A stretch of 55,177 bases of DNA from an uncultured Traorella sp. (GTDB lineage Bacteria > Bacillota_I > Bacilli_A > Erysipelotrichales > Erysipelotrichaceae): NCBI GenBank assembly GCA_944324265.1, contig CALUVS010000012.1:1-55177 (forward strand). The letters run 5' to 3'. Of this stretch, positions 26,102 through 55,127 are shown in pieces. The position numbers and the translations under genes are program-made. The notes beneath the pieces were generated by a model that was not told the origin of the DNA, made no database searches, and saw only the letters and a program-made list of their open reading frames with translations. The first letter of the stretch is position 1; each line of letters starts with the position of its first letter.

Positions 26102-27241
26102 TTAAATCATTGCCTTTCCTTTGCAGTATGTCTGTTCTACTGAATAGTCATCATTTAAGACAACGATGTCAGCGTCATAGCCGTTCATCAGTTTTCCTTT
26201 GTGATCGTCAATTCTTAAAAGACGAGCTGGGTTGATTGTGCATGAATTCAAGGCTACATCAAATGGTACCTGTGCTTCTTCGACTAAGATTCTTAATCCT
26301 TCATTAACTCTTAAAGTACTTCCGGCCAATGAATCAGATTCTGTCAAGTGAGCAGATCCATCCGGATAGATGACAATTTCATGTCCGCCGAATAAGAATT
26401 TGCTGCCTTCAGGATATCCTTTGGCCATTAATGAATCAGTGATCATGATGGCATAATCTCTGCCTTTTGTTGTGAAGTAGTTATTTAAAGCAGCTAATGT
26501 AGAGTGATTGCCGTCGCAGATAATTTCACCGAAGACATCTCTGAAACGATATGCAGCGCCGACCAAACCGTTGTTGCGGTGGTTGAATGGAGACATACCA
26601 TTGTATACGTGAGTCATAGAACGAGCTCCGTTTGCTACAGCCATTGCGGCTTCTTCATAAGTAGCATTGGAGTGACCGATGCTGACAACAACACCGTTTT
26701 CGCTGCAGTAGCGAGTCAGGGCAAAGTCTTCATCGTGTTCTGGTGCCATTGTAATAATTTTGATCAAGCCGTCAGCAGCTTCTTGATACTGTTTGAATTG
26801 TTCGACAGATGGTGCTTTGATATGTTCAGGCGGCTGAGCTCCTTTGTATTTCATATCAAGGTAAGGTCCTTCAAAGTGAATACCTAAAATTTCAGCACCC
26901 TCTGGGTTCTGTTTGTAAACATCTGCGACATTTTTAACGGCAGCGCTGAGTACTTCAAAGCTCTGAGTAATTGTTGTTGGGCAGATGCCGCAAACCCCTT
27001 CCTTCGGAATGTTAGCCAGCCAGTTTTTCAAGCCATCTTCGGTTGCATCGTTGGTATCCCATCCATAATATCCGTGTGTGTGGATATCTAAAAAGCCAGG
27101 GACAATACGTTTGCTTCCATAGTCTTGATCGGCTGTTTTTTCACCGTAATTGTAAATACGGCTGATCTTGCCGTCAGTTATTTCAATTTGTGCTGGAATG
27201 AACTGATTGGCAACCCATACTTTTTTACTTTGAATAATCAT
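26102..27241 (-). CDS. nagA: N-acetylglucosamine-6-phosphate deacetylase
   Basis: Removes acetate from N-acetylhexosamine-6-phosphate in the cytosol; the aga pathway often uses the same fold for GalNAc-6-P (AgaA). The 379-residue amidohydrolase-superfamily protein keeps HTH (His54, His56), metal Glu124 in HFEGPYLD, His190 in IGHSNAT, His211 in THVYNGM and catalytic Asp269 in MITDSL. The start is the ATG of MIIQSKK at 27241, 8 nt after AGGAGG; a longer in-frame start at 27268 lies before that site. It diverges from agaS, whose product would act on the deacetylated sugar phosphate, so GalNAc-6-P is a likely substrate. Confidence 0.93.
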   Translation of the reverse strand: MIIQSKKVWVANQFIPAQIEITDGKISRIYNYGEKTADQDYGSKRIVPGFLDIHTHGYYGWDTNDATEDGLKNWLANIPKEGVCGICPTTITQSFEVLSAAVKNVADVYKQNPEGAEILGIHFEGPYLDMKYKGAQPPEHIKAPSVEQFKQYQEAADGLIKIITMAPEHDEDFALTRYCSENGVVVSIGHSNATYEEAAMAVANGARSMTHVYNGMSPFNHRNNGLVGAAYRFRDVFGEIICDGNHSTLAALNNYFTTKGRDYAIMITDSLMAKGYPEGSKFLFGGHEIVIYPDGSAHLTESDSLAGSTLRVNEGLRILVEEAQVPFDVALNSCTINPARLLRIDDHKGKLMNGYDADIVVLNDDYSVEQTYCKGKAMI

Positions 27242-27346
27242 AGTTGTTCCTCCTGAAAGTGTTTTCATCTATCTACTATTTTACAGTGATTTTGATAAAA
27301 ACATTTGTCTTTTTTATTCTTGTTATTATCTATTTTAACCAATTTG

Positions 27347-27375
27347 TTGTTTTTTTACAACTAACTTGCTAGAAT
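27347..27375 (+). promoter_or_regulatory. Promoter of agaS-agaF
   Basis: TTGTTT (27347-27352), 17 nt, extended -10 TGC-TAGAAT (27367-27375). A small inverted repeat GTTGT-N6-ACAAC (27346-27361) overlaps the -35 and may be an operator. The 158-bp gap is shared with divergent nagA. Confidence 0.55.
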
Positions 27376-27399
27376 GGCATTGAAAAGGAGGACAAAATC

Positions 27400-28572
27400 A
27401 TGATTTTCAATCACACAAATGAACAATTTGAGGAATTATCTGCGATTTATACAGCAACAGAAATTCATCAGCAGCCTGCTACATGGGTGAAAACTATTGC
27501 ACAGGTGAAAGCATGCAAAGAAGAATTAAAGGCGTTTATTTCTCAAGTAACAAGTCAGGATGACTATGACATTGTTTTGGCTGGTGCCGGTACCAGTGAA
27601 TTTGTCGGAAATGCTCTTTATTCTTATCTGAATAAGCTTACAAACTTTAAATGTAAGTCTTATGGAACAACAGATATTGTTGCAACTCCAGAAAATTATT
27701 TATCTAGAACAAAGCCAACTTTATTGATCTCTTTTGGACGTTCAGGGAATTCTCCTGAGTCTATCGGAGCAGTAGATGCGGCAGAAGCAGTATGTGAAAA
27801 CTTATATCACTTATTTATTACTTGCAATAAGAATGGGGCTTTATCAAAGAGAGCTGCCAGTGAAAAGAATTGCTTTGCTATCAATCTGACTGATGAAACA
27901 CATGATCAGTCTTTTGCGATGACCTCAAGCTTCTCAAATATGTATTTAGCATGTTTGTTATGCTTTGAATTGGATCGTATTGATGAAGTAGCTGAAGAAA
28001 TGGAATGCATCATCAAACGTGCAGAAAACTTCTTAGAAAACGATTATACTTATATTTCGAACATAGCTGATAGTTACAACTTTAACCGTATCGTTTACTT
28101 AGGAGCTAATGCTTTAAAGGGGATTGCACAGGAATCTGCACTGAAGATGCTGGAATTGACTGCAGGAAAAGTGGCAACTATGTATGATACACCTTTGGGA
28201 TTCAGACATGGACCAAAATCAATTATTAATGATGATACTTTAACTGTTATCTATTTGAGCGATGATGCTTATTCATATCAGTATGAATTGGATCTGATCA
28301 AAGAAATGAGCGGACAGCGCAAAGGAAATAAGATCTTAGCTGTCGGCAATACAGCTCATGATGAAGTAAAAGAGTTAGTTGATTACTATTATTCATTCAA
28401 CGGTTGTGAACATAATAATGTATTGTTAGGTCTTGATTACATTACAGTGGCACAGGTTTTGGCTTTATTTAAGTCTTTATCACTGAATATCACACCTGAT
28501 AATCCTTGCCCAAGCGGGGAAGTAAACCGTGTTGTTAAGGGTGTTATTTTATACCCATATACAAGAAAATAA
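27400..28572 (+). CDS. agaS: SIS-domain galactosamine-6-P deaminase/isomerase (AgaS type)
   Basis: A 390-residue protein with two SIS (sugar isomerase) domains. AgaS converts galactosamine-6-phosphate to tagatose-6-phosphate with ammonia release. Visible are LAGAGTSEFVG (about 60-70), SFGRSGNSPESIGAV in domain 1, and LELTAGKVATMYDTPLGFRHGPK in domain 2, a stretch characteristic of AgaS. Normal length. AAAGGAGG precedes the ATG. Followed after 17 nt by a mannose-family PTS IIA gene; context with nagA and gatZ supports an amino-galactose pathway. Confidence 0.9.
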   Translation: MIFNHTNEQFEELSAIYTATEIHQQPATWVKTIAQVKACKEELKAFISQVTSQDDYDIVLAGAGTSEFVGNALYSYLNKLTNFKCKSYGTTDIVATPENYLSRTKPTLLISFGRSGNSPESIGAVDAAEAVCENLYHLFITCNKNGALSKRAASEKNCFAINLTDETHDQSFAMTSSFSNMYLACLLCFELDRIDEVAEEMECIIKRAENFLENDYTYISNIADSYNFNRIVYLGANALKGIAQESALKMLELTAGKVATMYDTPLGFRHGPKSIINDDTLTVIYLSDDAYSYQYELDLIKEMSGQRKGNKILAVGNTAHDEVKELVDYYYSFNGCEHNNVLLGLDYITVAQVLALFKSLSLNITPDNPCPSGEVNRVVKGVILYPYTRK

Positions 28573-28589
28573 ATTTAGGAGGACATAAG

Positions 28590-29024
28590 ATGATTGGAAT
28601 GTTAGTAACAGGACATGGCCATTTTGCAACTGGCTTAGCTAGTTCTGTTCAGTTGATTGCAGGAATGCCTGAAAAATTTGAATTAGTAGACTTTGTAGAA
28701 GAATATTCTGTAGATGATCTGAGAAGAGAATTGAATGCAGCTATCGATCGTTTGAGTGACTGCTCAGGTATTTTGGTATTCTCTGATTTGCCGGGAGGAT
28801 CACCATTTAAAACAGCTGTAGAAGTATCTGTAGAAAGAAAAGAAGATATTCGTGTATTGGCAGGGACAAATTTAGGAATGCTGATTGAAATTTCTATGGC
28901 CAGAGGTTTTGTAGAAAATATTGATGATTTATTAAATATGGCCATTACAACTGGTAAAGATCAGGTTGTTACTTTTGCTTTACAGCCAAAAACTGAAGAA
29001 GTAGAACCGGAAGACGGAATTTAA
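28590..29024 (+). CDS. agaF: PTS system mannose-family EIIA component
   Basis: A 144-residue cytosolic phosphocarrier of the EIIA-Man fold. It accepts phosphate from HPr on His9 (in TGHGHFATG) and passes it to EIIB. FSDLPGGSPFKTA and GTNLGMLIE are family motifs. It ends in an acidic tail. Together with the IIB, IIC and IID genes 220 bp downstream it makes one GalNAc/galactosamine-type permease. The gap holds regulatory DNA, so IIA is expressed with agaS and can be uncoupled from the other subunits. Confidence 0.9.
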   Translation: MIGMLVTGHGHFATGLASSVQLIAGMPEKFELVDFVEEYSVDDLRRELNAAIDRLSDCSGILVFSDLPGGSPFKTAVEVSVERKEDIRVLAGTNLGMLIEISMARGFVENIDDLLNMAITTGKDQVVTFALQPKTEEVEPEDGI

Positions 29025-29059
29025 AAATTTGGTTATAGAGCGCAGATTTCCAATTTTTT
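29023..29059 (+). terminator. Weak terminator-like hairpin after the IIA gene
   Basis: AAAAATT(T)GG pairs with CCAATTTTT across a 17-nt loop, followed by a T-run. It would reduce readthrough into the IIB-IIC-IID genes. Confidence 0.4.
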
Positions 29060-29080
29060 AAACATTTTCAGATGTTTTAT

Positions 29081-29208
29081 ATTTGCACTTTTCATAAATT
29101 TTACCTTACTGAAAAGTGCAAATGCAACAATAAAAAGTGTAAAGAAAAATAGCTGAAAGCGCTTTATAATAAACTCGTAGGTAACATTTATTGTCAATTA
29201 AGTGCAAA
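29081..29208 (+). promoter_or_regulatory. Operator region with four AAGTGCAAA-type repeats before the PTS IIB gene
   Basis: A 13-bp perfect inverted repeat (29081-29093 and 29111-29123, arms GCACTTTTC / GAAAAGTGC plus AAAT ends) contains two head-to-head copies of AAGTGCAAA. Further copies lie at 29135-29143 (AAGTGTAAA) and 29200-29208 (AAGTGCAAA). The repetition suggests binding sites for a dedicated regulator rather than a terminator, since no T-run follows. Confidence 0.6.
29154..29170 (+). promoter_or_regulatory. CcpA cre site overlapping a -10 box
   Basis: TGAAAGCGCTTTAT (29154-29167) matches the cre consensus except for its last two bases, and overlaps a perfect TATAAT (29165-29170). 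Catabolite repression of the PTS IIB-IIC-IID genes is therefore likely. A second possible promoter (TTGTCA at 29191) lies closer to the gene. Confidence 0.65.
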
Positions 29209-29243
29209 AAATGTTAAACTATGTGATAAGGAGGTAGGTAATC

Positions 29244-29720
29244 ATGCCTAATATCGTTTTAACTCGTATTGACAATCGTCTGATTCACGGACAGGTAGCC
29301 ACTCAGTGGACAAGCAGTATCGGTGCAAACTTGATTCTGGTTGCCAATGATGAAGTAGCAGGAAATGAACTCCGCCAGGGGTTGATGAACATGGCTGCTC
29401 CTAGCTTTGCCCAAACACGTTATTGGACAATTGCCAAGACTATTGCAACTATTCACAAAGCATCTGACGCACAGAAGATCTTCATCGTATGCGAAAACCC
29501 AACTGATGTATTAGCATTGGTTGAAGGTGGAGTTCCTATCAAGAAATTGAATGTAGGAAATATGCATATGGCTGAAGGAAAACGTCAGGTTGCTGCAGCT
29601 GTTGCAGTAGATGACAAAGATGTAGAAGCTTTCAAGAAACTTCGTGACCTTGGAGTGGAAATTGAAATTCGTAAAGTTCCTTCTATGGCTGCTGAAGATA
29701 CATCTAAGCTTTTCATTTAA
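29244..29720 (+). CDS. PTS system mannose-family EIIB component
   Basis: A 158-residue cytosolic EIIB of the mannose/fructose/sorbose family that takes phosphate from EIIA and gives it to the sugar during transport. The active-site His15 sits in RIDNRLIHGQVATQW; VANDEVA and LNVGNMHMAEGKRQ are further family stretches. A strong AAGGAGG site precedes the ATG. First of three contiguous permease genes; GalNAc or galactosamine is the likely substrate from context. Confidence 0.93.
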   Translation: MPNIVLTRIDNRLIHGQVATQWTSSIGANLILVANDEVAGNELRQGLMNMAAPSFAQTRYWTIAKTIATIHKASDAQKIFIVCENPTDVLALVEGGVPIKKLNVGNMHMAEGKRQVAAAVAVDDKDVEAFKKLRDLGVEIEIRKVPSMAAEDTSKLFI

Positions 29721-29786
29721 CAACTTAACTTACAACTTAAATTAACTTAACTTAAAAAATCTTAATCTTAGAAAGGGGATTAACTC

Positions 29787-30590
29787 ATGGAAATTGGAAT
29801 CATCCAAGTCTTATTAATTGGTGTTGTTGGTTTCATCGGTGGGATTGACCAGTTCAGTTTCTTGGAATCATTATACCAACCAATTGTTTTAGGACCAATC
29901 GTAGGTGCTATTTTAGGTAACTTAGACATGGGTCTTAAAATTGGGGCTTCTTACCAGTTGATGTCAATTGGTAGTATGCCTATCGGTGGGGCACAACCAC
30001 CAAACGCCGTATTAGGTGGTATCATGGCAACCGTATTTGCCATCACATTAAATCGTCCTGACTTCGAATCAGCTTTAGGTTTAGCTATTCCATTCGGTTT
30101 ATTAGGACAGCAAGCTGTTAACATTTGGTTCACAGTTGCTTCTCCAGTTATGACTAAGATGGATCACATGTCAGCTGAAGCTAATGTTAAGGGTGTTGAA
30201 CGTTGGAACTTAATCATGATGTTCGGTATTGGTGTATTGTTCGCAGTAATTGCTATGATTGGTGCATATGCAGGTGCTGAACTTGGTACATTGTTATCAG
30301 AAATTGTTCCTGATCAAGTATGGGCAGGATTCAACGCTGCTGGTGGTATGATGAAGTTCGTCGGATTCGCAGTATTAATGAAAGTTATGATTTCTGGTGA
30401 ATTCTGGACAGTATTAATTGCTGGTTTCGCATTAGCTAACGTAATCGATGCCGCATTCGGTGCTGGTTCATACACATTAGTTATCATGGCAATCGTCGGT
30501 GCAGCATTAGCATTCTATGACTTCCAGATCAATACTAAGATTAGCGCTGTAGCTAGCGCTGCAAAGGAGGATTACTCTGATGGCATCTAA
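29787..30590 (+). CDS. PTS system mannose-family EIIC component
   Basis: A 267-residue membrane subunit of the sugar channel, with about six to seven hydrophobic helices. GGIDQFSFLESLYQPIVLGPIVGAI near the N-terminus and SIGSMPIGGAQPPNAVLGGI are hallmarks of the family. Frequent use of TTC and AAC codons in this and the IID gene suggests high expression. The 3' end overlaps the IID start by 11 bp. Confidence 0.93.
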   Translation: MEIGIIQVLLIGVVGFIGGIDQFSFLESLYQPIVLGPIVGAILGNLDMGLKIGASYQLMSIGSMPIGGAQPPNAVLGGIMATVFAITLNRPDFESALGLAIPFGLLGQQAVNIWFTVASPVMTKMDHMSAEANVKGVERWNLIMMFGIGVLFAVIAMIGAYAGAELGTLLSEIVPDQVWAGFNAAGGMMKFVGFAVLMKVMISGEFWTVLIAGFALANVIDAAFGAGSYTLVIMAIVGAALAFYDFQINTKISAVASAAKEDYSDGI

Positions 30591-31407
30591 TTTAGCAACT
30601 ACTTATAAAGATTTAACTCCAGCTCCACAACTGGATAAAGCTACATTAAACAAAATGGTTTGGCGTTCATTGTTCTTGCAGATGAGCTTCAACTATGAAC
30701 GTATGCAAGCCGGTGGATGGTTGTATGGTATCTTACCTGCATTGGAAAAAATCCACACAAACAAGGAAGACTTAGCATTATCAATGCAGCACAACCTTGA
30801 ATTCTTTAACACTCACCCATTCTTAGTAACATTCGTTATGGGTATCGTTCTTTCATTGGAACAAGTAAAAGCTGACATTCCTACTATTCGTGCCGTACGT
30901 GTAGCAGCAATGGGACCTTTAGGTGGTATCGGGGATGCAATCTTCTGGTTGACATTAGTTCCTATCACTGCAGGTATCGCAGCTAACTTCGCACTTGATG
31001 GAAGTATCATTGGACCAATTCTGTTCTTAGTTATCTTCAACGTAGTACAGTTTGTAGTTCGTTACTTCTTGATGCACTGGTCTTACAACTTGGGATCTTC
31101 AGCAATCGGTGCTTTAACTAAACACGCAAAAGAATTTACTCACGCAGCTACTTTATTAGGTATCTTCGTAGTAGGTGCTTTGATTGCTAACATGGGTTCA
31201 ACTACAGTTGCATGGACTATTGCTAATGGAGAATCACCAATCGTTATCCAGAGCGTAATCGATAGTATTTTCCCTAAATTAATTCCTTTGGGATTAACTT
31301 GCGGATTATATTGGTTAATTGCTAAGAAGAACTGGTCAGTAGTAGCATGTATCGTGTTATTACTTGTAGTCGGTATCGTTGGTGGATTTGTTGGCGCATT
31401 TGTATAA
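30580..31407 (+). CDS. PTS system mannose-family EIID component
   Basis: A 275-residue membrane subunit unique to mannose-family PTS permeases. Visible: N-terminal WRSLFLQMSFNYERMQAGGW, HNLEFFNTHPFL, MGPLGGIGDAIFW, and C-terminal hydrophobic helices. An AAAGGAGG site inside the end of the IIC gene and the 11-bp overlap indicate translational coupling. A terminator follows at 31454. Confidence 0.94.
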   Translation: MASNLATTYKDLTPAPQLDKATLNKMVWRSLFLQMSFNYERMQAGGWLYGILPALEKIHTNKEDLALSMQHNLEFFNTHPFLVTFVMGIVLSLEQVKADIPTIRAVRVAAMGPLGGIGDAIFWLTLVPITAGIAANFALDGSIIGPILFLVIFNVVQFVVRYFLMHWSYNLGSSAIGALTKHAKEFTHAATLLGIFVVGALIANMGSTTVAWTIANGESPIVIQSVIDSIFPKLIPLGLTCGLYWLIAKKNWSVVACIVLLLVVGIVGGFVGAFV

Positions 31408-32989: not shown

Positions 32990-34315
32990 TTATAGAACTT
33001 CTTGGTGTGAAGCGTATAAGTATTCATCAATGGTATTGATGATACGGTCTCTGACAAGTTCTTCAGGATCGTTTTCTAATTCGCCTACTCTTACTTTTGT
33101 ATATTGGATTGGCATATACTGACTCATTAAGTTCAATGGGATGCCGCCAAGTGAACGCAGATTCTTCATCATTGTTTCAATGGCATTCTGAACTCGAGGG
33201 TCTGGCATGTAGTAACGGCAGCGATCAGAGAAGGAATATTTACGTTTGATGCGCAGTTCATTTTCATTGCCGCTGTAGTATTTTGCCCATTTGTCAGGTT
33301 TTTCCAGCATGACTTCTTCCAATACATCAATCAGACGGCTTGTCTGTACATCAGTTCCTTCGAAGACTTCTTCTTCGATGTGAGCTAATGCAAATAGACC
33401 TTCACGCATTGCAAATGTTAATCCAGGACCAACTTTTAATACGCCGACACCATCTTCAACTAATTCTTTTAATTTGTATTTTGTTTGGTAGTCAGTAGAG
33501 TGTCCTTCAAAGACTAAGTTTGGATATTCTTTGATGGCAGCCATTAAGTCTTTGGCTTTTTCTCTGTCATATTCTGTACATCCGGCATCTTTTTCTTCTA
33601 CACCTGGCTGTACGACAACAGCGATAACATCTTTCCATGTTTCCTGCAATCCTAATTCATTGAATGCTTTTTCAAAGGCAGTGACAGTTGCTTTGAAGTC
33701 TTCTACTTTTGTTACCTGAACACCGGCATCAACTGTGGCACCGGTAGCTCCTCCTGGAATTGGCACTTCTGAACCAACGATGTAGACAGGCCGAACAGCT
33801 TCAGGATCTTTCTTTAATAATTCCTGATAAGTTTCTTCCGCTACTTTCGCTAAATATGCCCCGCGTTTTGAAATGATTTCATCACTTAAACGAGTATTTG
33901 GATCATCATCAGCAACCTTCATAGAAGTATCAATGTGGATCTTCGTAAATCCGGCTCCGACATAGCAGCGAATTAATTCTTCTGCATTTGCCATGGCTTC
34001 TTTTTCAGGCAAGTGAGTCCATGTCAATGGTCCTAAATGGTCACCACCTAAGAAAATACGTTTCTTATCAAAACCGATGCGGTCAGCGATTTCATAAACA
34101 AAATTTTTGAAATCAAGTGGTTTCATTCCTGTATAACCGCCGAATTGGTCTACCTGATTGGCTGTAGATTCGATCAGTACAACATGATTGTCGACTTTGG
34201 CTCTTTTCAGTACTGCTTCGATGACATAGTTATTGGCAGAACATGCTGAGTAGATTCCGACAGGATTGCCGGCCTTCTGCTGAGCAACGATCTGTTTTAA
34301 TGGATTTGTGTTCAT
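32990..34315 (-). CDS. Tagatose-bisphosphate aldolase non-catalytic subunit (GatZ/KbaZ type)
   Basis: A 441-residue cytosolic protein of the GatZ/KbaZ family, which is required for activity and stability of the class II aldolase GatY/KbaY that splits tagatose-1,6-bisphosphate. Family stretches: GIYSACSANNYVIEAVLKRA, IESTANQVDQFGGYTGM, LGGDHLGPLTW, IHIDTSM, VGSEVPIPGGA and FEGHSTDYQT. Full length. Monocistronic on the minus strand; no gatY/kbaY or tagatose-6-P kinase gene is in the window. Its presence fits the AgaS product entering lower glycolysis as tagatose-bisphosphate. AGGAG precedes the ATG. Confidence 0.94.
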   Translation of the reverse strand: MNTNPLKQIVAQQKAGNPVGIYSACSANNYVIEAVLKRAKVDNHVVLIESTANQVDQFGGYTGMKPLDFKNFVYEIADRIGFDKKRIFLGGDHLGPLTWTHLPEKEAMANAEELIRCYVGAGFTKIHIDTSMKVADDDPNTRLSDEIISKRGAYLAKVAEETYQELLKKDPEAVRPVYIVGSEVPIPGGATGATVDAGVQVTKVEDFKATVTAFEKAFNELGLQETWKDVIAVVVQPGVEEKDAGCTEYDREKAKDLMAAIKEYPNLVFEGHSTDYQTKYKLKELVEDGVGVLKVGPGLTFAMREGLFALAHIEEEVFEGTDVQTSRLIDVLEEVMLEKPDKWAKYYSGNENELRIKRKYSFSDRCRYYMPDPRVQNAIETMMKNLRSLGGIPLNLMSQYMPIQYTKVRVGELENDPEELVRDRIINTIDEYLYASHQEVL

Positions 34316-48337: not shown

Positions 48338-49111
48338 TCATTCATCAGCGATAAGTACTTTTGTTTTACCATTGGCCTCATATTTTGGAATCAAACTACG
48401 ATCAATTTTAGAATCAGTGATTAGATAATCGATTTCATCCAGTTTAGCAAATGAGAAAAAAGACGTTTTATCAAATTTAGTAGAAAGACATAGACAGATT
48501 ACTTCATTGGCAACATCGATAAAAGCCTTTTTCAATACTTCATCACCATATTGGTATAGCATTAAGCCATTTTCAGTATTTACAGTTGCAGTTCCAAGAA
48601 ATACTTTATTTACACGTACTTTTTTGATAGATTGTACGGCATCTTCGCTGGTAAAGATTTTTGAAAATGCAGTATTTCTAATTGATCCGCCAAATGTAAT
48701 CAAATTGACATTTGGTTTTGATGCTAACTCATTAATCACAGTTAAATCTTGTGTAATCACAGTTACAGGGAAATCTCCTAGTAATTTAGCAATCTCATAA
48801 GTTGTTGAACCATCATCAATAATAATGATATCACCAGGATGGATCAACTCAAGAGCTTTTAAAGCAATTTTCTCTTTTTCTTTAGTTGAAAGAGCACTAT
48901 ACCCTTCGGTTGGAAACAAATTGTTCGTTTCGCCAATATAGGAAGCTCCACCGTGAGTGCGCACTAAAATAGCAGCTTTTTCTAGTTTCCCTAAATCTAA
49001 ACGAATCGTTTTCTCACTTACGTTCAACAATGAGCTTAATCTAGTGGTGGAAACGTTTTTTTCTGCTTTTAAAATTTCAGTTATCTCTTTTAATCTAGTT
49101 TCTGCTTTCAC
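48338..49111 (-). CDS. DeoR family transcriptional regulator
   Basis: A 257-residue sugar-responsive repressor. The N-terminal winged helix-turn-helix (RLKEITEILKAEKNVSTTRLSSLLNVSEKTIRLDL split over residues 6-40, then GGASY) is followed by the DeoR C-terminal sensor (DIIIIDDGSTTYEIAKLL; VITQDLTVINEL; FGGSIRN; KVFLGTATVNTENGL) related to ribose-5-phosphate isomerase, which binds phosphorylated sugars. The start is a GTG with only a weak ribosome site. It diverges from the SIS-amidohydrolase-PTS operon and is its likely regulator. Confidence 0.93.
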   Translation of the reverse strand: MKAETRLKEITEILKAEKNVSTTRLSSLLNVSEKTIRLDLGKLEKAAILVRTHGGASYIGETNNLFPTEGYSALSTKEKEKIALKALELIHPGDIIIIDDGSTTYEIAKLLGDFPVTVITQDLTVINELASKPNVNLITFGGSIRNTAFSKIFTSEDAVQSIKKVRVNKVFLGTATVNTENGLMLYQYGDEVLKKAFIDVANEVICLCLSTKFDKTSFFSFAKLDEIDYLITDSKIDRSLIPKYEANGKTKVLIADE

Positions 49112-49146: not shown

Positions 49147-49270
49147 TTGATATTATCAAAACGAACATTATATTAGCATAAAAAACTCAAAATGTTCGAA
49201 AATGTTTTGAATTGTGTACAAAACGGAAATATTTTGTGTTCAAACCATTTACAAAAATGAACAAATTGTT
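49147..49270 (+). promoter_or_regulatory. Operator cluster between deoR-type gene and SIS-PTS operon
   Basis: TTGATA-T-TATCAA (49147-49159), CGAACATT (49162-49169) with its exact inverse AATGTTCG (49191-49198), a further AATGTTTTG (49201-49209), TGTTCAAA (49237-49244) and AACAA-A-TTGTT (49260-49270) touching the -10. The repeated GAACA/TGTTC core is a reasonable DeoR-family target. Confidence 0.6.
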
Positions 49271-49295
49271 TATAATAAACATGTAAGCGCTAACA
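49248..49295 (+). promoter_or_regulatory. Promoter with perfect cre site for the SIS-amidohydrolase-PTS operon
   Basis: TTTACA (49248-49253), 17 nt, perfect TATAAT (49271-49276). TGTAAGCGCTAACA (49282-49295) matches the CcpA cre consensus at all positions and covers the transcript start, a repressing position. Confidence 0.88.
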
Positions 49296-49310: not shown

Positions 49311-50327
49311 ATGAACGGGTTCATTGACGAAGTTTGTACTCAAGGGGTACTGATGAAAGAAGTCATTTCATACTATCAAAACGAAGGACTTCTTAAGATT
49401 GATCAGATTGTGGATTTATTTAAAAAAAGAAACATGAATAAAGTAATTATGACTGGAATGGGAAGCTCACTTTATGCTATGGAATCTGTCAAAAGTTATT
49501 TGACTGGAAAAGGTATTGTTACTTTATCATTAAGTGCATTTGATTTATCAAGATTTGAATTTAATTATATTGACGACAAAACGCTTGTGATTGCAATTTC
49601 TCAATCTGGGAATTCAATGGAAGTAATTGAACTTGTTGAAAAGGCAAAGAAGATTACACAAGTTGTAGGTATTTATAATAATGAAGGATGTAAACTCCAG
49701 GAAATTGCTGATATTGTTTTACCAATCAGAGCTCATAAGGAAGTATCTATAACAAGTAAGACATATCAATTTACAATGTTTATACTAAATGTATTGGCAC
49801 ATAGATTAACTGGTGAATTAAATGATGATTTCTGGCAAGAGGCTAATGAAATTGCAGATTGGTCAGAAAAATGGCTTTCTGATTATGAAAATAATACGAA
49901 AGATATGTATGAATTTTCAAAAGATTATTTATTACTAGATTTGCTTGCGAACAATACTTCTTTGGCGACTGCTAAACAATTATCACTGGCATATCGTGAG
50001 GGTTTGCATAATTGCACAGCTGTATGGGAATGTGCTGACTACGCTCATGGTCAATATCATAGTTCTAAATTAGGTAAAGATTATTTAGCTCAAATGTTTT
50101 TCCCAGTATTTGAAGATGATACAAAAGAAATGAAGATGCTTAATTATATTTTAGATCATGGCGGAAGAGTTATGCTGTTTACTACAAGCGACATTAAAGA
50201 AAGAGAAAGACTTTTTGTTGTTAAATTACCAAAGTTTAGACTATCACTGATGCCACTTGTGGAAAGTATTGCTGCAGAAACATTATTAGGGATGCAATTT
50301 GGCCCTACTTGGGTAAAAGATCACTAG
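49311..50327 (+). CDS. SIS-domain phosphosugar-binding protein (first of two)
   Basis: A 338-residue protein with two SIS domains, as in the isomerase half of GlmS and the FrlB/GfrEF deglycases. Domain 1: VIMTGMGSSLYAMES (about 45-59) and IAISQSGNSMEVIELV (about 94-109); domain 2 contains TAVWECADYAHGQYHSS (about 235-252), a position where deglycases and isomerases have the catalytic Glu/His segment. Predicted to isomerise or deglycosylate the sugar-6-phosphate delivered by the PTS encoded downstream. AGGAGG precedes the ATG. First gene of the operon. Confidence 0.88.
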   Translation: MNGFIDEVCTQGVLMKEVISYYQNEGLLKIDQIVDLFKKRNMNKVIMTGMGSSLYAMESVKSYLTGKGIVTLSLSAFDLSRFEFNYIDDKTLVIAISQSGNSMEVIELVEKAKKITQVVGIYNNEGCKLQEIADIVLPIRAHKEVSITSKTYQFTMFILNVLAHRLTGELNDDFWQEANEIADWSEKWLSDYENNTKDMYEFSKDYLLLDLLANNTSLATAKQLSLAYREGLHNCTAVWECADYAHGQYHSSKLGKDYLAQMFFPVFEDDTKEMKMLNYILDHGGRVMLFTTSDIKERERLFVVKLPKFRLSLMPLVESIAAETLLGMQFGPTWVKDH

Positions 50328-50338
50328 GAGGTTAGAAA

Positions 50339-51079
50339 ATGATTATTGATGTATCAAATACAATAGGTAAACATAGATTTAAACCTGAAATTAAAGCAGA
50401 AGATTTATTAAAAGAAATGGATAAATCAGGTATTGATATTGCAGTTATTCATAGTTATGCTGAGTCAATTGATAATCAATCTGTTGAAGAAGCAGTAAAA
50501 AAATATCCAAATAGATTTATTGGCTTATATGTTGTGAACCCTTGGGATGATGATGCTGCAGAAAAATTTGAGGATGCATTGGTTAATCATGGATTTAAAG
50601 GTATCTATATGGATCCAATTCGTCATGGATACATGTTATGTGAACACATGGTTTTCTATCCTTTATTAGAAGTCTGCAAAAAATACGATGTTCCAGCTTG
50701 GATTTATGGTGCTGCAGAGGTCTTCAGCAGTCCTATATTCTTTGATGCAATTGCTGAAGATTTCCCAGAAGTCAACATTATTATGGGAAGAATGGGGCTG
50801 CAATATGATAATGCGAGTGCAGTAGCTATTGGAAAACGCCATCCTAATGTATATATCGAAACATCTTCAAGTATGGATTTTAACACACATAGGGCAATCA
50901 AAACTTGTGGCATTAATAAGGTATTGCTCGGTACTGGTACACCTGAAGCAGGATATTTTGATTTAGAATTAATGAAGGTCAGAAATGCTGCTAAGAATTA
51001 TGAAGATGGCGAACGCAAAGTTTTGTGGGAAAATGCAGCTAATATTTTCCACATTAAGGAGGAAGAGTATGATCATTGA
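50339..51079 (+). CDS. Amidohydrolase-fold protein with altered metal site (first paralogue)
   Basis: A 246-residue TIM-barrel protein of the amidohydrolase-2 (COG2159-like) family. It aligns along its whole length with the next gene product (IAVIHSYAESIDNQSVEEAVKKYP and FIGLYVVNPWD against CMICSQLETIDNDYIHECC and TVGFAVINPWD). The usual N-terminal DxHxH is DVSNTIG; the barrel-strand His is replaced (IMGRMGLQ instead of LFHTGVP); and the terminal Asp motif SSDAPFGD is GTGTPEAG. Its metal site therefore looks lost. It may be a partner subunit or have a metal-free activity. It overlaps the next gene by 11 bp. Confidence 0.82.
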   Translation: MIIDVSNTIGKHRFKPEIKAEDLLKEMDKSGIDIAVIHSYAESIDNQSVEEAVKKYPNRFIGLYVVNPWDDDAAEKFEDALVNHGFKGIYMDPIRHGYMLCEHMVFYPLLEVCKKYDVPAWIYGAAEVFSSPIFFDAIAEDFPEVNIIMGRMGLQYDNASAVAIGKRHPNVYIETSSSMDFNTHRAIKTCGINKVLLGTGTPEAGYFDLELMKVRNAAKNYEDGERKVLWENAANIFHIKEEEYDH

Positions 51080-51788
51080 TATGTTAGCACACATTGGAAG
51101 AAAAAAGGGTGAAGACTATAAATTTGAATCATTGTTAGAAATCATGGATCAAGCAGGAGTAGAAAAGTGTATGATTTGTTCTCAGCTTGAAACAATTGAT
51201 AATGATTACATTCATGAATGCTGCTTAAAATATCCTGAAAGAACAGTTGGTTTTGCTGTAATTAATCCATGGGATATTGATGCAGAAGAAGAATTAGAAA
51301 AGTGCTTTAGAGATTATAATTTTTACGGTTTAAAAATGAACGCTATTCGTTACGGATATAGTGCAGATAGACATAGTATTTTAGACCCATTCTTTGACTT
51401 ATGCAGAAAGTATAAGAAATGCGTTGTAGCACATGGTCAATCAGATATGTTTTCCATTCCGGATAAATGGGCAGAAATGGCTAAAAGTTATCCAGATGTA
51501 CCTGTGATTTTATTTCACACAGGAGTTCCGATGATGTATGATCGAGCATGTGAGCTGGCTAGAGATATTCCAAACTTCTATGTCAGCACGTGCGGTTCTT
51601 ACGTACCAGTAATCAAAATGTCATATGAGATTGCTGGACCAGAAAAAGTTCTTTTTAGCTCTGATGCACCATTTGGAGATATGATGCAGGAAATTGAAAA
51701 AGTGAAATACATTTGCGATAATCCTGAACATCTTGAAATGATGCTTGGTAAGAACGCTGCGAAAATTCTAGGAATTAAATACGAATAA
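51069..51788 (+). CDS. Amidohydrolase family protein (second paralogue)
   Basis: A 239-residue TIM-barrel hydrolase of the amidohydrolase-2 family. It keeps a barrel-strand His in VILFHTGVP, a His in VVAHGQSD and the catalytic-type Asp in LFSSDAPFGDM, while the N-terminal DxHxH is reduced to DMLAHIG. A mononuclear metal site is plausible. Family members hydrolyse or decarboxylate small carboxylated or lactone substrates. Start ATG 51069 is inside the end of the preceding gene, after AAGGAGG; the longer frame from 50985 lies wholly within that gene. Confidence 0.85.
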   Translation: MIIDMLAHIGRKKGEDYKFESLLEIMDQAGVEKCMICSQLETIDNDYIHECCLKYPERTVGFAVINPWDIDAEEELEKCFRDYNFYGLKMNAIRYGYSADRHSILDPFFDLCRKYKKCVVAHGQSDMFSIPDKWAEMAKSYPDVPVILFHTGVPMMYDRACELARDIPNFYVSTCGSYVPVIKMSYEIAGPEKVLFSSDAPFGDMMQEIEKVKYICDNPEHLEMMLGKNAAKILGIKYE

Positions 51789-51798
51789 GATAAGTGAT

Positions 51799-52875
51799 AT
51801 GAGAAGTGTGATGTGGAAATACATTAATGAAGAAAGTGCAATTTTATTGAATAACATTGCATCTGATGAAATTGATGTATGTATTAAAGAAAATAATTTA
51901 GTAAATATAAAATCCTTATATTTCATTGCTCATGGAAGTTCATATAATGCTGCAACAGTATGCTCTTCAATTTTTTCAAAAACATGTAAACTTAGAACAA
52001 ATGTTATGACCCCAGCAAACTTTATGTTCAATAGCGGAAACATTGACTTGGAAAATAGAGAAGAAGTATTAGCCATCTTTATCAGTCAGACTGGGACAAG
52101 TCGAGGAGTTTTAGAATCTTTACAAATTGTTAAAGAAAAAGGCTTTAAGACAATGGGAATTACTGAGGTAAGAGGCTCAAAACTTGATCAAAATGTAGAT
52201 GCGAGCATTTATTTGAATGTTGGCGTAGAGGATAGCAACGCCAAAACAAAAGGGTATACTTCAACAATTGTGCAATTGTTATTGTTTGCATATAAATTAG
52301 CTTTACATCAAGGGAAGATCAATCAGCTTGAATATAAAGAATTAATTAATGCTTTAATTCAGGAAGTAAATTTATTAGATGATACATTTCAAAAGGTAAT
52401 GGAATATGCAAAGAGTGTTGATTATTTCCATGATGTAAAAGACTTGTATGTATTAGGAAATGGGATTAACTTCGGATCATCTTTAGAAGGACAATTAAAG
52501 CTCATGGAAACAATGTGCATGCCAACAATGTTTAATGACATATTGGAATTCTCTCATGGAATGCATCGATCAATAAAGCAGGGAAGTACTATTTGGATTT
52601 TTAATACCGATGCTCATGGCTTGAATCAAATCAATTATCAAACATTTAAATATTTGAAAACAATTACAAATAAGGTGATGATGGTGAATGCATCACATCA
52701 AGTAATTGAAGAAGAAGGTATTATTAATTTGCCTTACTTTAAATATGATGATTCAGTTTTATTGATAACCTTGGTTATTCAAATGTTGTCTGCATATATT
52801 CCGGAATTTAATAATTTGGATCCAAATATTGATTCGAATAATGATTATACTGTTGCTGTTGAAACTAGAATTTAA
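51799..52875 (+). CDS. SIS-domain phosphosugar-binding protein (second of two)
   Basis: A 358-residue double-SIS protein, related in layout but not closely in sequence to the first. Domain 1: YFIAHGSSYNAATVCSSIF (about 37-55) and AIFISQTGTSRGVLESL (about 93-109); domain 2: YVLGNGINFGSSLEGQLKLMET and NDILEFSHGMHRSI (about 248-261), where Glu and His match the catalytic region of GlmS/FrlB-type enzymes. The start is uncertain: ATG 51799 or ATG 51811, both with weak ribosome sites, 10 nt or more after the amidohydrolase stop. Confidence 0.86.
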   Translation: MRSVMWKYINEESAILLNNIASDEIDVCIKENNLVNIKSLYFIAHGSSYNAATVCSSIFSKTCKLRTNVMTPANFMFNSGNIDLENREEVLAIFISQTGTSRGVLESLQIVKEKGFKTMGITEVRGSKLDQNVDASIYLNVGVEDSNAKTKGYTSTIVQLLLFAYKLALHQGKINQLEYKELINALIQEVNLLDDTFQKVMEYAKSVDYFHDVKDLYVLGNGINFGSSLEGQLKLMETMCMPTMFNDILEFSHGMHRSIKQGSTIWIFNTDAHGLNQINYQTFKYLKTITNKVMMVNASHQVIEEEGIINLPYFKYDDSVLLITLVIQMLSAYIPEFNNLDPNIDSNNDYTVAVETRI

Positions 52876-52924
52876 TTAAAATAGCCAAAACTCATTAAAA
52901 GAGTAAAAATAAGGAGGATAAAAT

Positions 52925-54223
52925 ATGGCAAAGAAAAGTAAATTTGAAGAAACTATGGAAAAAGTGGGAATTTTTATCGAAGAGAAATTAGCTCCGCCAT
53001 TGGTGAAATTTGGAAATCAAAGACATATGGTTGCCATTCGTTCAGCATTAATTAGAACTATTCCAATGATTATTGTTGGATGTATTCCTTTATTGCTGAC
53101 GTCATTCCCAGCTCAAGCTGTTGTCGATTTCTTTGCACCTTATGCTGTACAGATTGATACATTGAATTCCATGACATTTGGATTTATCAGTTTGTGGTTG
53201 GCAATTTCCTTGGCATCAGAATTGTCAAAAATGTATGATGAACTTGATCCTGTTATGTGTCAAATTGTAACTGTATGCTGCTATTTAATTGTAGTTGAGC
53301 CTATCTATTTGTCAAATGGTGCAATTGGGATAACTGGACTTGGTGCAAAAGGTATGTTTGCATTATTTATCGTTGCAATTGTTGTAGTTGAATTTATGCA
53401 TTTTGCATTCAAACATAATATCGTAATTCGAATGCCAAAAGCTGTTCCTGCAAATATAGCTAACTCTTTTGCAGCTCTAGTTCCTATGGGAATCATTGTT
53501 GTATTCTTCTGGTTTGTACGCGTCATTTTAGGATTTGATTTGACTGTATTTATTAATGCTATTATTTCTCCGATTCTAAGTGTTACAGATACTTGGTATG
53601 CGGCAGTAATTTGTAGCTTATTAACACAAATTTTGTGGTTTGTAGGTATTCATGGTGGTTCATTTACAATCTGGGGACCAATGTATCCAATTTTATTAAC
53701 TAATATTTCTGAAAATGCAGCTGCCAGAGCAGCAGGAGAAGCATTACCACACATTCTGACAGAACCATTCTTCTATTCTTGGCATATGATTGGTGGTGTA
53801 GGTTGTACATTGGTATTATGTTTTATTTGGTGGAATTCAAAATCAAAAGCTCTGCGCGAAGTAGCACGTGTTTCACTTATTCCAGGTATTTTCTGTGTTA
53901 ACGAGCCAGTAGTATTTGGTGCTCCAATTGTATTTAATCCGTATTTGTTTATTCCTTTTGTATTCTTATCATCTGTATTTGGAACGATTTATGGTTATGT
54001 GTTAACAGCGTTAGGTGTTATTAGTGCTGCTTATGTGCAAATTCCTTGGTCAACTCCACCTTTGATTCATCCATTATTATCAACAGGTGATTGGAAAGCA
54101 GTTGTAGCTCAAGCAATTTTGATTGTATTATTATTCATTATTTGGTATCCATTTGCTAAGCTTTGGGAAAAGAAATGTGTCGAAGAAGAACAAGCGAACG
54201 AAGCTCTTGAATCTAGCGAATAA
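52925..54223 (+). CDS. PTS system lactose/cellobiose-family EIIC component
   Basis: A 432-residue membrane permease of the EIIC-Lac/Cel family, about ten helices. Family markers: GNQRHMVAIRSALIRTIPMIIVG near the N-terminus, FVGIHGGSFTIWGPMYPIL (substrate-binding region), GIFCVNEPVVFGAPIVFNPYLFIPF (catalytic NEP motif) and WSTPPLIHPLLSTGDW. Full length. AAGGAGG precedes the ATG. The EIIB and EIIA of the same system follow. Confidence 0.94.
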   Translation: MAKKSKFEETMEKVGIFIEEKLAPPLVKFGNQRHMVAIRSALIRTIPMIIVGCIPLLLTSFPAQAVVDFFAPYAVQIDTLNSMTFGFISLWLAISLASELSKMYDELDPVMCQIVTVCCYLIVVEPIYLSNGAIGITGLGAKGMFALFIVAIVVVEFMHFAFKHNIVIRMPKAVPANIANSFAALVPMGIIVVFFWFVRVILGFDLTVFINAIISPILSVTDTWYAAVICSLLTQILWFVGIHGGSFTIWGPMYPILLTNISENAAARAAGEALPHILTEPFFYSWHMIGGVGCTLVLCFIWWNSKSKALREVARVSLIPGIFCVNEPVVFGAPIVFNPYLFIPFVFLSSVFGTIYGYVLTALGVISAAYVQIPWSTPPLIHPLLSTGDWKAVVAQAILIVLLFIIWYPFAKLWEKKCVEEEQANEALESSE

Positions 54224-54259
54224 ATATGCTAAATTCGAGTAAGAGAGAGGTGGAAGGTC

Positions 54260-54595
54260 ATGAAAAAAGTTAGATTTGTAGTTTTTTGTGGGGCAGCAAT
54301 GTCTTCAGGACTTATTGTTGATAGTATGAAAAAACATGCTGCAGAAGTTGGAGTAGAGTTGGAAGGCGGATGTTTTGCAAGTATGAGATATCGTGAATTT
54401 GATTATGGATCAGTCGATATTGTTTTACTTGCTCCTCAAATTAAAAGCCAGCAGGACTTTATTCGTAAAACAATGGATGAAAAAGGATATAAAGATGTTC
54501 CGATTATGATCATTCCTATGCGAGATTATGGCTTGTGTCATGGAAAACCAATCCTTATTGAAGCTTTAAAAGTATTGGAAGAAAAAGGAAAATAA
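54260..54595 (+). CDS. PTS system lactose/cellobiose-family EIIB component
   Basis: A 111-residue cytosolic EIIB with the phosphocysteine Cys10 in VVFCGAAMSSGLIV, the usual CxxGMSSS-like loop with small changes, and VDIVLLAPQIKSQQD. It takes phosphate from EIIA and passes it to the sugar at EIIC. GGAAGG ribosome site. Confidence 0.93.
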   Translation: MKKVRFVVFCGAAMSSGLIVDSMKKHAAEVGVELEGGCFASMRYREFDYGSVDIVLLAPQIKSQQDFIRKTMDEKGYKDVPIMIIPMRDYGLCHGKPILIEALKVLEEKGK

Positions 54596-54605
54596 GGAGA
54601 ACAAA

Positions 54606-54926
54606 ATGACTTTAGAGGATGTAAGTACGATTTGCATGGAGATGATTAGTTATGCTGGTGAAGGAAGGGCATTGGTTTATGAAGCAATCAATTCCTTTGT
54701 AGCTGACAATTTTCAAAAAGCATTAGAACAGTTAGAAGAGGCAGAGAAATTCCTTGGTGAAGCTCATCGTATGCAGTACGAAAAACTTATGGCTCCACAA
54801 TTCCAGGGTGAGGAGATACCTTGTTCGGTACTGATGCTTCATGCTATGGATTTAACTTTGATTTCAACATCTGAGCATGATTTACTTAGAGCTTTGATTA
54901 CGGCAAAAATCGAAAATAAGGATTAA
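54606..54926 (+). CDS. PTS system lactose/cellobiose-family EIIA component
   Basis: A 106-residue, all-helical EIIA. The active-site His79 is retained in LMLHAMDLTLI, and Asp82, the trimer metal ligand, is also present; the family's HAQDH is HAMDL here, so the Gln and second His are substituted. SYAGEGRALVYEAI and EAHRMQ are family positions. It lies 10 nt after EIIB with an AAGGAG site. Last clear gene of the operon. Confidence 0.92.
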   Translation: MTLEDVSTICMEMISYAGEGRALVYEAINSFVADNFQKALEQLEEAEKFLGEAHRMQYEKLMAPQFQGEEIPCSVLMLHAMDLTLISTSEHDLLRALITAKIENKD

Positions 54927-54946: not shown

Positions 54947-55105
54947 ATGAAGGGTTCAATTATTATTAATGGTACAAAAGAAAGGGCATTTAATTGTCTT
55001 AAACGATCAGTTATAGAAGATATAAAAAATGCAGGAATTGATATCTGTGACAAAGATTTAGGAAAAGGATATCGTTATTCTAAAAAATCTTTATCAAAAG
55101 ATTGA
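54947..55105 (+). CDS. Short hypothetical protein (52 residues)
   Basis: ATG 54947 to TGA 55105, 20 nt after the EIIA stop, with GAGG 8-9 nt upstream. The product is basic and Lys/Asp-rich (MKGSIIINGTKERAFN, then KNAGIDICDKDLGKG and KKSLSKD); no family was recognised. It could be a small operon gene, a truncated gene, or chance. Confidence 0.35.
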   Translation: MKGSIIINGTKERAFNCLKRSVIEDIKNAGIDICDKDLGKGYRYSKKSLSKD

Positions 55106-55110
55106 ACTAA

Positions 55111-55127
55111 CTCGCTTTTCAAGCGAG
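55111..55127 (+). other. Perfect hairpin near the window end
   Basis: CTCGCTT-TTC-AAGCGAG, 5 nt after the stop of the 52-residue frame. No clean T-run follows, so it is a weak terminator at best; the remaining 50 bp show no gene. Confidence 0.45.

Follow-up and report, generated by a model that had tools for sequence, protein, structure and literature searches.

A candidate catabolic operon for an N-substituted sugar in an uncultured Traorella, with two double-SIS proteins and a probable enzyme-pseudoenzyme amidohydrolase pair

What is the function of an operon that joins a sugar importer to two SIS-domain proteins and two amidohydrolases, and why should each kind of enzyme be present in two versions? 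The question is raised by a seven-gene cluster near the right end of a 55,177-nucleotide stretch of DNA (the window), which is the entire contig CALUVS010000012.1 of the 2.2-Mb genome of an uncultured Traorella sp. (assembly GCA_944324265.1). We read this cluster as an operon, under DeoR and CcpA control, for the catabolism of an N-substituted sugar, such as a glycated amine or similar conjugate, a tentative assignment to which we give somewhat less than an even chance. An earlier note on this DNA had placed the seven genes, named here SIS1, AH1, AH2, SIS2, EIIC, EIIB and EIIA, in that order on one strand at 49311-54926 with overlaps or short gaps, and this description is borne out: all lie on the plus strand with spacings, from SIS1 to EIIA, of +11, -11, +10, +49, +36 and +10 bp, and all score above cut-off in Pfam (PF01380 for SIS1 and SIS2, PF04909 for AH1 and AH2, and the lactose/cellobiose (Lac/Cel)-type PTS_EIIC, PTS_IIB and PTS_IIA for the three components of a phosphotransferase system, PTS). 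What the inventory missed was a divergent DeoR gene, a promoter, a cre site and the loss of the metal ligands from AH1.

49311-50327, plus strand: SIS1, double-SIS sugar-phosphate enzyme (PF01380, fold model and residue mapping)
50339-51079, plus strand: AH1, amidohydrolase-type TIM barrel lacking metal ligands, probable pseudoenzyme partner (PF04909)
51069-51788, plus strand: AH2, amidohydrolase with four of five ligands, probable catalytic subunit (PF04909 and ligand alignment)
51799-52875, plus strand: SIS2, double-SIS protein with a complete GlmS-type quartet (PF01380)
52925-54223, plus strand: PTS EIIC, lactose/cellobiose family (PF02378, TIGR00410)
54260-54595, plus strand: PTS EIIB, phosphocysteine in FCGAAMSS (PF02302)
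54606-54926, plus strand: PTS EIIA, phosphohistidine in LMLHAMD (PF02255)

The transporter has every feature that marks a PTS of the lactose/cellobiose family, namely an EIIC of that family (279.9 bits against TIGR00410, cut-off 236) together with an EIIB phosphocysteine and an EIIA phosphohistidine, each invariant across six orthologues. AH1 and AH2 are paralogues of 34% identity encoded by adjacent genes, the ATG of AH2 overlapping the end of AH1 by 11 bp; SIS1 and SIS2 share 26% identity.

A pattern scan based on AH1 over 84,980 species genomes, a type of scan that misses relatives, gave four loci with AH1 copies 70-77% identical to that of the window (L067 in a Christensenella metagenome-assembled genome (MAG), L068 in Candidatus Bariatricus, and L069 and L070 in Lachnospiraceae, the carrier of L070 being Lachnospiraceae bacterium MD308); L096, the fifth, came from a search confined to the family to which L070 belongs. 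With the window these make six genomes, all with the identical order of a divergent DeoR gene followed by SIS1-AH1-AH2-SIS2-EIIC-EIIB-EIIA, a synteny which rules out a chance grouping of genes. The earlier note had staked its reading on the SIS and amidohydrolase genes being conserved together with the PTS, and in six genomes they are. At all five other loci an HPr gene continues the unit, enzyme I and a HAD phosphatase being added at L067 and L096, while the window copy carries none of these three genes; in the slot occupied elsewhere by HPr the window has a short open reading frame (ORF) 3' of EIIA, 54948-55105, which begins MKGSIIINGTKERAFN and has no family assignment. Some ORF start codons in the retrieved loci were assigned mechanically, and at L067 (9389-10701) SIS2 is split across two frames by a frameshift or an assembly error.

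The enzymes of the operon evolve at different rates. AH2, with 78-80% identity at the four measured loci, is the slowest, SIS1 is 66-73% identical to its counterparts at the five loci, and SIS2 is the fastest, the window copy being 40-42% identical to the others. A distant relative, L076, has the order DeoR-EIIC-SIS1-AH1-AH2, with SIS2, EIIB and EIIA not on its contig, and because SIS2 is both the fastest-evolving enzyme and absent from this contig, the core looks like SIS1 plus the amidohydrolase pair. No AH1 orthologue was found on searching 195 further genomes of the family to which the window belongs (best other match 34% identity), and for SIS1 the 394 other genomes of the class gave no hit reaching E 1e-20. 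A patchy spread of copies this similar suggests horizontal transfer. Since L069, L070 and L096 are close relatives with common flanking genes and several carriers are MAGs, the independent events number fewer than six; nevertheless the eight-gene unit is real and rare, and is probably moving horizontally.

The most informative feature of the unit is the inequality of its two amidohydrolases, both of which the earlier note had treated as enzymes. In the ACMSD of Pseudomonas fluorescens the ligands are His9, His11, His177, His228 and Asp294, corresponding to the HxH motif, the beta5 His, the beta6 His and the beta8 Asp (PMC11650718). At these five metal/catalytic positions AH1 has S, T/I, Y, R and G in all six orthologues, thus lacking every PF04909 ligand, while AH2 has L, H, H, H and D, likewise in six of six, the first His of HxH being replaced by Leu. 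In the distant L076 the corresponding residues are HHFHD in AH1 and HHHHD in AH2. The fold of AH1 is nonetheless retained, its AlphaFold model keeping the barrel (pLDDT 94.9) and matching 3cjp most closely (Z 27.5) and ACMSD (Z 24), among others including the lactonases 4di8 and 2ffi. A decaying pseudogene is ruled out by the intact reading frame in all six orthologues and by pairwise dN/dS of 0.05-0.08 for pairs with measurable dS (AH2 being at about 0.02 and EIIC at 0.03), so that the ligands have been lost from a gene under strong purifying selection; their loss also disfavours AH1 and AH2 as two successive enzymes. Judged from sequence, AH1 most likely serves AH2 as a non-catalytic partner. 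The ACMSD monomer is inactive, a neighbouring subunit contributing an essential substrate-binding arginine (PMC9021598, PMC11650718), and because a subunit there completes its neighbour's active site, we propose that AH1 could do the same for AH2 in a presumptive hetero-oligomer.

SIS1 and SIS2 both contain two SIS subdomains over about 330-360 aa, as expected of double-SIS proteins, and all orthologues of both have the equivalents of GlmS Glu488 and His504 (numbered as in the mature protein) as well as the phosphate-binding SQ[ST]G loop (SQSGNS, SQTGTS). The inactivity of the FraB mutant E214A (PMC10100877) would fit an essential glutamate in the SIS family. In SIS1 these two residues are E230 and H246, with Q and A at the Glu481 and Lys485 sites, and its AlphaFold model (pLDDT 87.9) aligns over 326-331 residues with GlmS isomerase domains (Z 34-36). 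Lys485 is also missing in FrlB, in a Klebsiella SIS adjacent to a ROK gene, and in the first SIS of a gfr-like Enterococcus faecium plasmid operon (L111, NZ_CP137463; PTS, SIS, SIS and HAD genes). SIS2, on the other hand, has the full Glu481/Lys485/Glu488/His504 quartet, as do GlmS, AgaS and the second SIS of L111, with which it groups (support 96/96; 141 bits as against 86 for GlmS) in a small tree with long branches, whose placements are leads. The closest solved relatives of SIS2 are 3g68 and 3knz, the former aligning with its profile over almost the whole length. In Salmonella, GfrE acts on glucoselysine-6-phosphate and GfrF on fructoselysine-6-phosphate (PMC12675984, where one figure legend is reversed), and by this precedent the assignment of SIS1 and SIS2 to two isomers is reasonable but unproven. 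The earlier suggestion of a phosphorylated N-substituted sugar, handled by two SIS proteins acting on two isomers or steps, is in keeping with the catalytic residues and the SIS tree.

Upstream of SIS1 lie the elements from which control of the operon can be judged, and downstream of EIIA a possible terminator:

48338-49111, minus strand: DeoR/GlpR-family repressor gene, divergent from the operon (PF00455 and PF08220 above cut-off)
49248-49276, plus strand: sigma-A-like promoter TTTACA-17-TATAAT (11 of 12 consensus positions; consensus match only)
49282-49295, plus strand: putative CcpA-type cre site TGTAAGCGCTAACA, directly 3' of the -10 box (exact match to TGWAARCGYTWNCW)
55111-55127, plus strand: intrinsic-terminator-like hairpin with T-rich tail, 3' of the operon (pattern scan; regional hairpin count no higher than in shuffles)

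The divergent regulator is present at all five syntenic loci (45-47% identity where measured), and its best named model is AgaR, at 156.9 bits far under the cut-off of 260. The cre pattern has one exact match in the whole window and none in 100 shuffles; the site is not kept at the other syntenic loci compared. A common DeoR operator was not demonstrated, inspection by eye giving short ATGTTCG/CGAACAT repeats at some loci, and the search for an RNA regulator gave no Rfam match. The seven genes read as a single operon subject to a DeoR repressor and, we infer, catabolite control.

How, then, might the products act together on an N-substituted sugar? EIIA, EIIB and EIIC, judged by family and by their conserved phospho-sites, would import the conjugate and phosphorylate its sugar. 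AH2 would process the non-sugar part by one of the reactions of the amidohydrolase superfamily, such as amide, lactam or ureide hydrolysis or decarboxylation, and AH1, the same barrel with its metal site absent, would complete or stabilise the AH2 active site across the hetero-oligomer interface. SIS1 and SIS2 may then cleave the bond between sugar and nitrogen, either in two isomers or in intermediates that follow one another, yielding a glycolytic hexose phosphate, SIS2 perhaps as a 2-amino-sugar enzyme of the GfrE/GlmS-like type and SIS1 as an enzyme of the E/H-only type, as in FrlB. The order of the steps, their chemistry and the substrate itself are all provisional in this scheme. A hydrolase acting on the amino-acid part has a precedent in the fra operon, where FraE operates with FraD and FraB (PMC4072780). 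As the earlier note had supposed, no characterised operon with this gene set was found in the open-access literature, which lacks most subscription papers; a paper on an E. faecium linear plasmid, considered as a match, concerns GalNAc and a different kind of operon.

Several observations weigh against this pathway. Lac/Cel PTS usually transport disaccharides and the known Gfr systems rely on a mannose-family PTS, while AH2 itself is without the first His of the HxH motif. SIS1 groups neither with FrlB nor with the FrlB-like SIS of E. faecium; its nearest relative in the small tree is the uncharacterised Klebsiella SIS beside a ROK kinase (L112), and when it is compared by fold, FrlB/FraB score below GlmS, AgaS and deaminases, in the order GlmS > AgaS > NagB-II > FrlB/FraB, with all scores high. 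The Klebsiella SIS belongs to a plasmid operon of the order DeoR-SIS-ROK-sugar transporter (L112, 4928-9252), and SIS1 matches 98 Klebsiella plasmid records.

The main rival is an amino sugar route, in which the PTS imports an N-acylated hexosamine or derivative, AH2 (with AH1) takes the role of NagA/AgaA as its deacylase, and the SIS enzymes deaminate/isomerise the product to a ketose phosphate. Known Lac/Chb-type PTS include importers of N-acetylated sugars, the SIS2 E/K/E/H quartet is that of GlmS and AgaS, and the best named model of the regulator is AgaR; but SIS1 lacks both Glu481 and Lys485, and the deacetylases of the known pathways are PF01979, not the PF04909 of AH1 and AH2. Moreover, a separate GalNAc-type cluster already exists in the window at 26102-31407, with a NagA-like deacetylase, an AgaS-family SIS (27400-28572; 433.8 bits against TIGR02815, cut-off 529.2) and mannose-family PTS genes (names other than AgaS assigned by eye), which makes GalNAc itself unlikely as the substrate of the operon. 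A KbaZ/GatZ-like ORF, so named by eye, lies beyond that cluster at 32990-34315. On this balance we regard the amino sugar route as unlikely, although it must be taken seriously.

Pairs of amidohydrolases linked to a PTS also occur elsewhere. Among 17 such pairs outside the window clade for which both sequences could be read, a convenience sample drawn by similarity to AH1 and hence giving no rate, 16 combine one HHHHD member with one degenerate member, mostly altered at the beta5 His; the sole exception, L043, combines HHYHD with HHFHN. A tree built from 75 sequences cannot be reconciled, on its well-supported branches, with fewer than six switches between the intact and the degenerate state, and it divides the PTS-linked pairs among three or more separate lineages. 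Their settings vary. Within the window's own family some pairs flank a mannose-family PTS and, at the loci read in detail, are accompanied by an IF-2B-like isomerase and a BtpA/SgcQ protein; others are joined to a Lac/Cel PTS and a GH4 glycosidase; others again adjoin a mannose-family PTS that has BtpA-like and RpiR-type genes beside it. On a Klebsiella plasmid a mannose-family PTS is flanked by such a pair and an ADP-ribosylglycohydrolase is also encoded, and this operon has no near match in E. coli genomes. The operon with a pair around a mannose PTS recurs at L039, L040, L041, L042, L043, L049, L051, L054, L055, L105 and others; the arrangement with GH4, seen at L032 (5184-10265), L033 (5684-10307) and L035 (8870-14350), also encodes a small conserved protein, about 105 aa long, that has no Pfam match. 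Beyond the PTS, both members are intact in a pair beside ABC-transporter-like genes (L034), and an adjacent pair of SYHHD and HHHHD lies in a UbiD/xanthine-dehydrogenase-like region of Ensifer (L031, 7062-8948). A lone amidohydrolase repeatedly adjoins a small membrane protein of about 170 aa, by eye resembling an ECF S-component, at L037 (8664-9892), L100 (7068-8375), L102 (6612-7878), L103 (7157-8449) and L106 (7391-8846).

These pairs bear on the proposal that AH1 is independent of AH2, having acquired a new function, for example as a ligand-binding sensor, or a metal-free enzyme chemistry. The near invariance of the substituting residues S, T/I, Y, R and G would fit a new binding site; AH1, however, always directly adjoins AH2, and the degenerate copy has an intact partner in the other PTS-linked pair types too, with one exception, so that we consider independence quite improbable. 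A lactone or ring-opening route, with AH2/AH1 as a sugar-acid lactonase or isomerase, as are some PF04909 enzymes, and SIS1/SIS2 as aldose-ketose isomerases on a rare sugar phosphate, can draw on the lactonases 4di8 and 2ffi among the AH1 fold matches and on GlmS isomerase domains as the best SIS1 fold match, but is very unlikely given that the operon has no oxidoreductase to make a lactone and that the nearest sequence matches are the uncharacterised 3cjp and the decarboxylase branch rather than lactonases. AH2, for its part, also gives a weak TatD match beside PF04909.

Returning to the partnership of AH1 with AH2, it is possible, and we hold this with reserve, that a general design is involved: PTS operons with a two-subunit amidohydrolase, made of an active member and a dead paralogue, would have arisen several times, the present operon, whose AH1 is without any ligand, being the extreme case and serving a dietary or host-derived sugar conjugate with an undescribed breakdown. 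If the model holds, the carriers use a sugar conjugate by an undescribed route, and PTS operons with amidohydrolase pairs form a predictable class. Assays of single proteins of such a pair would then risk false negatives, and the proteins would need to be tested jointly. Repeated independent loss of ligands in one copy would also make the evolution of enzyme-pseudoenzyme complexes testable in a compact bacterial system.

How does this organisation compare with known systems? AH1 and AH2 share the fold of ACMSD and related PF04909 decarboxylases and of 3cjp (CAC3332), and the proposed completion of one subunit's active site by another is that of ACMSD; AH1 differs in lacking the metal ligands, and both proteins are shorter (about 240 aa as against 330). 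Activation of an active enzyme by its dead paralogue, as proposed here, is found in the AdoMetDC-prozyme of trypanosomes (PMC5201418) and in deoxyhypusine synthase (PMC3663545), although AH1 and AH2 come from another family and the parallel is drawn from their sequences. The aga/nag amino sugar pathways, like this operon, combine a PTS, a SIS enzyme, a deacylase of the amidohydrolase superfamily and a DeoR-family regulator, but their deacylase is PF01979, and the AgaS-family gene of this genome is the separate one noted above. With the Salmonella fra operon for fructose-asparagine (PMC4072780) the common logic joins hydrolysis of the amino-acid part to phosphorylation and cleavage by a SIS deglycase, whereas fra has a separate kinase and transporter, an asparaginase instead of PF04909 proteins and one SIS protein. 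In gfrABCDEF of Salmonella (fructoselysine/glucoselysine) and in the E. faecium operon L111, import with phosphorylation by a PTS is followed, as here, by two SIS-family enzymes; the PTS there is of the mannose family (EIIA-D) and here Lac/Cel, and the amidohydrolases are found here only.

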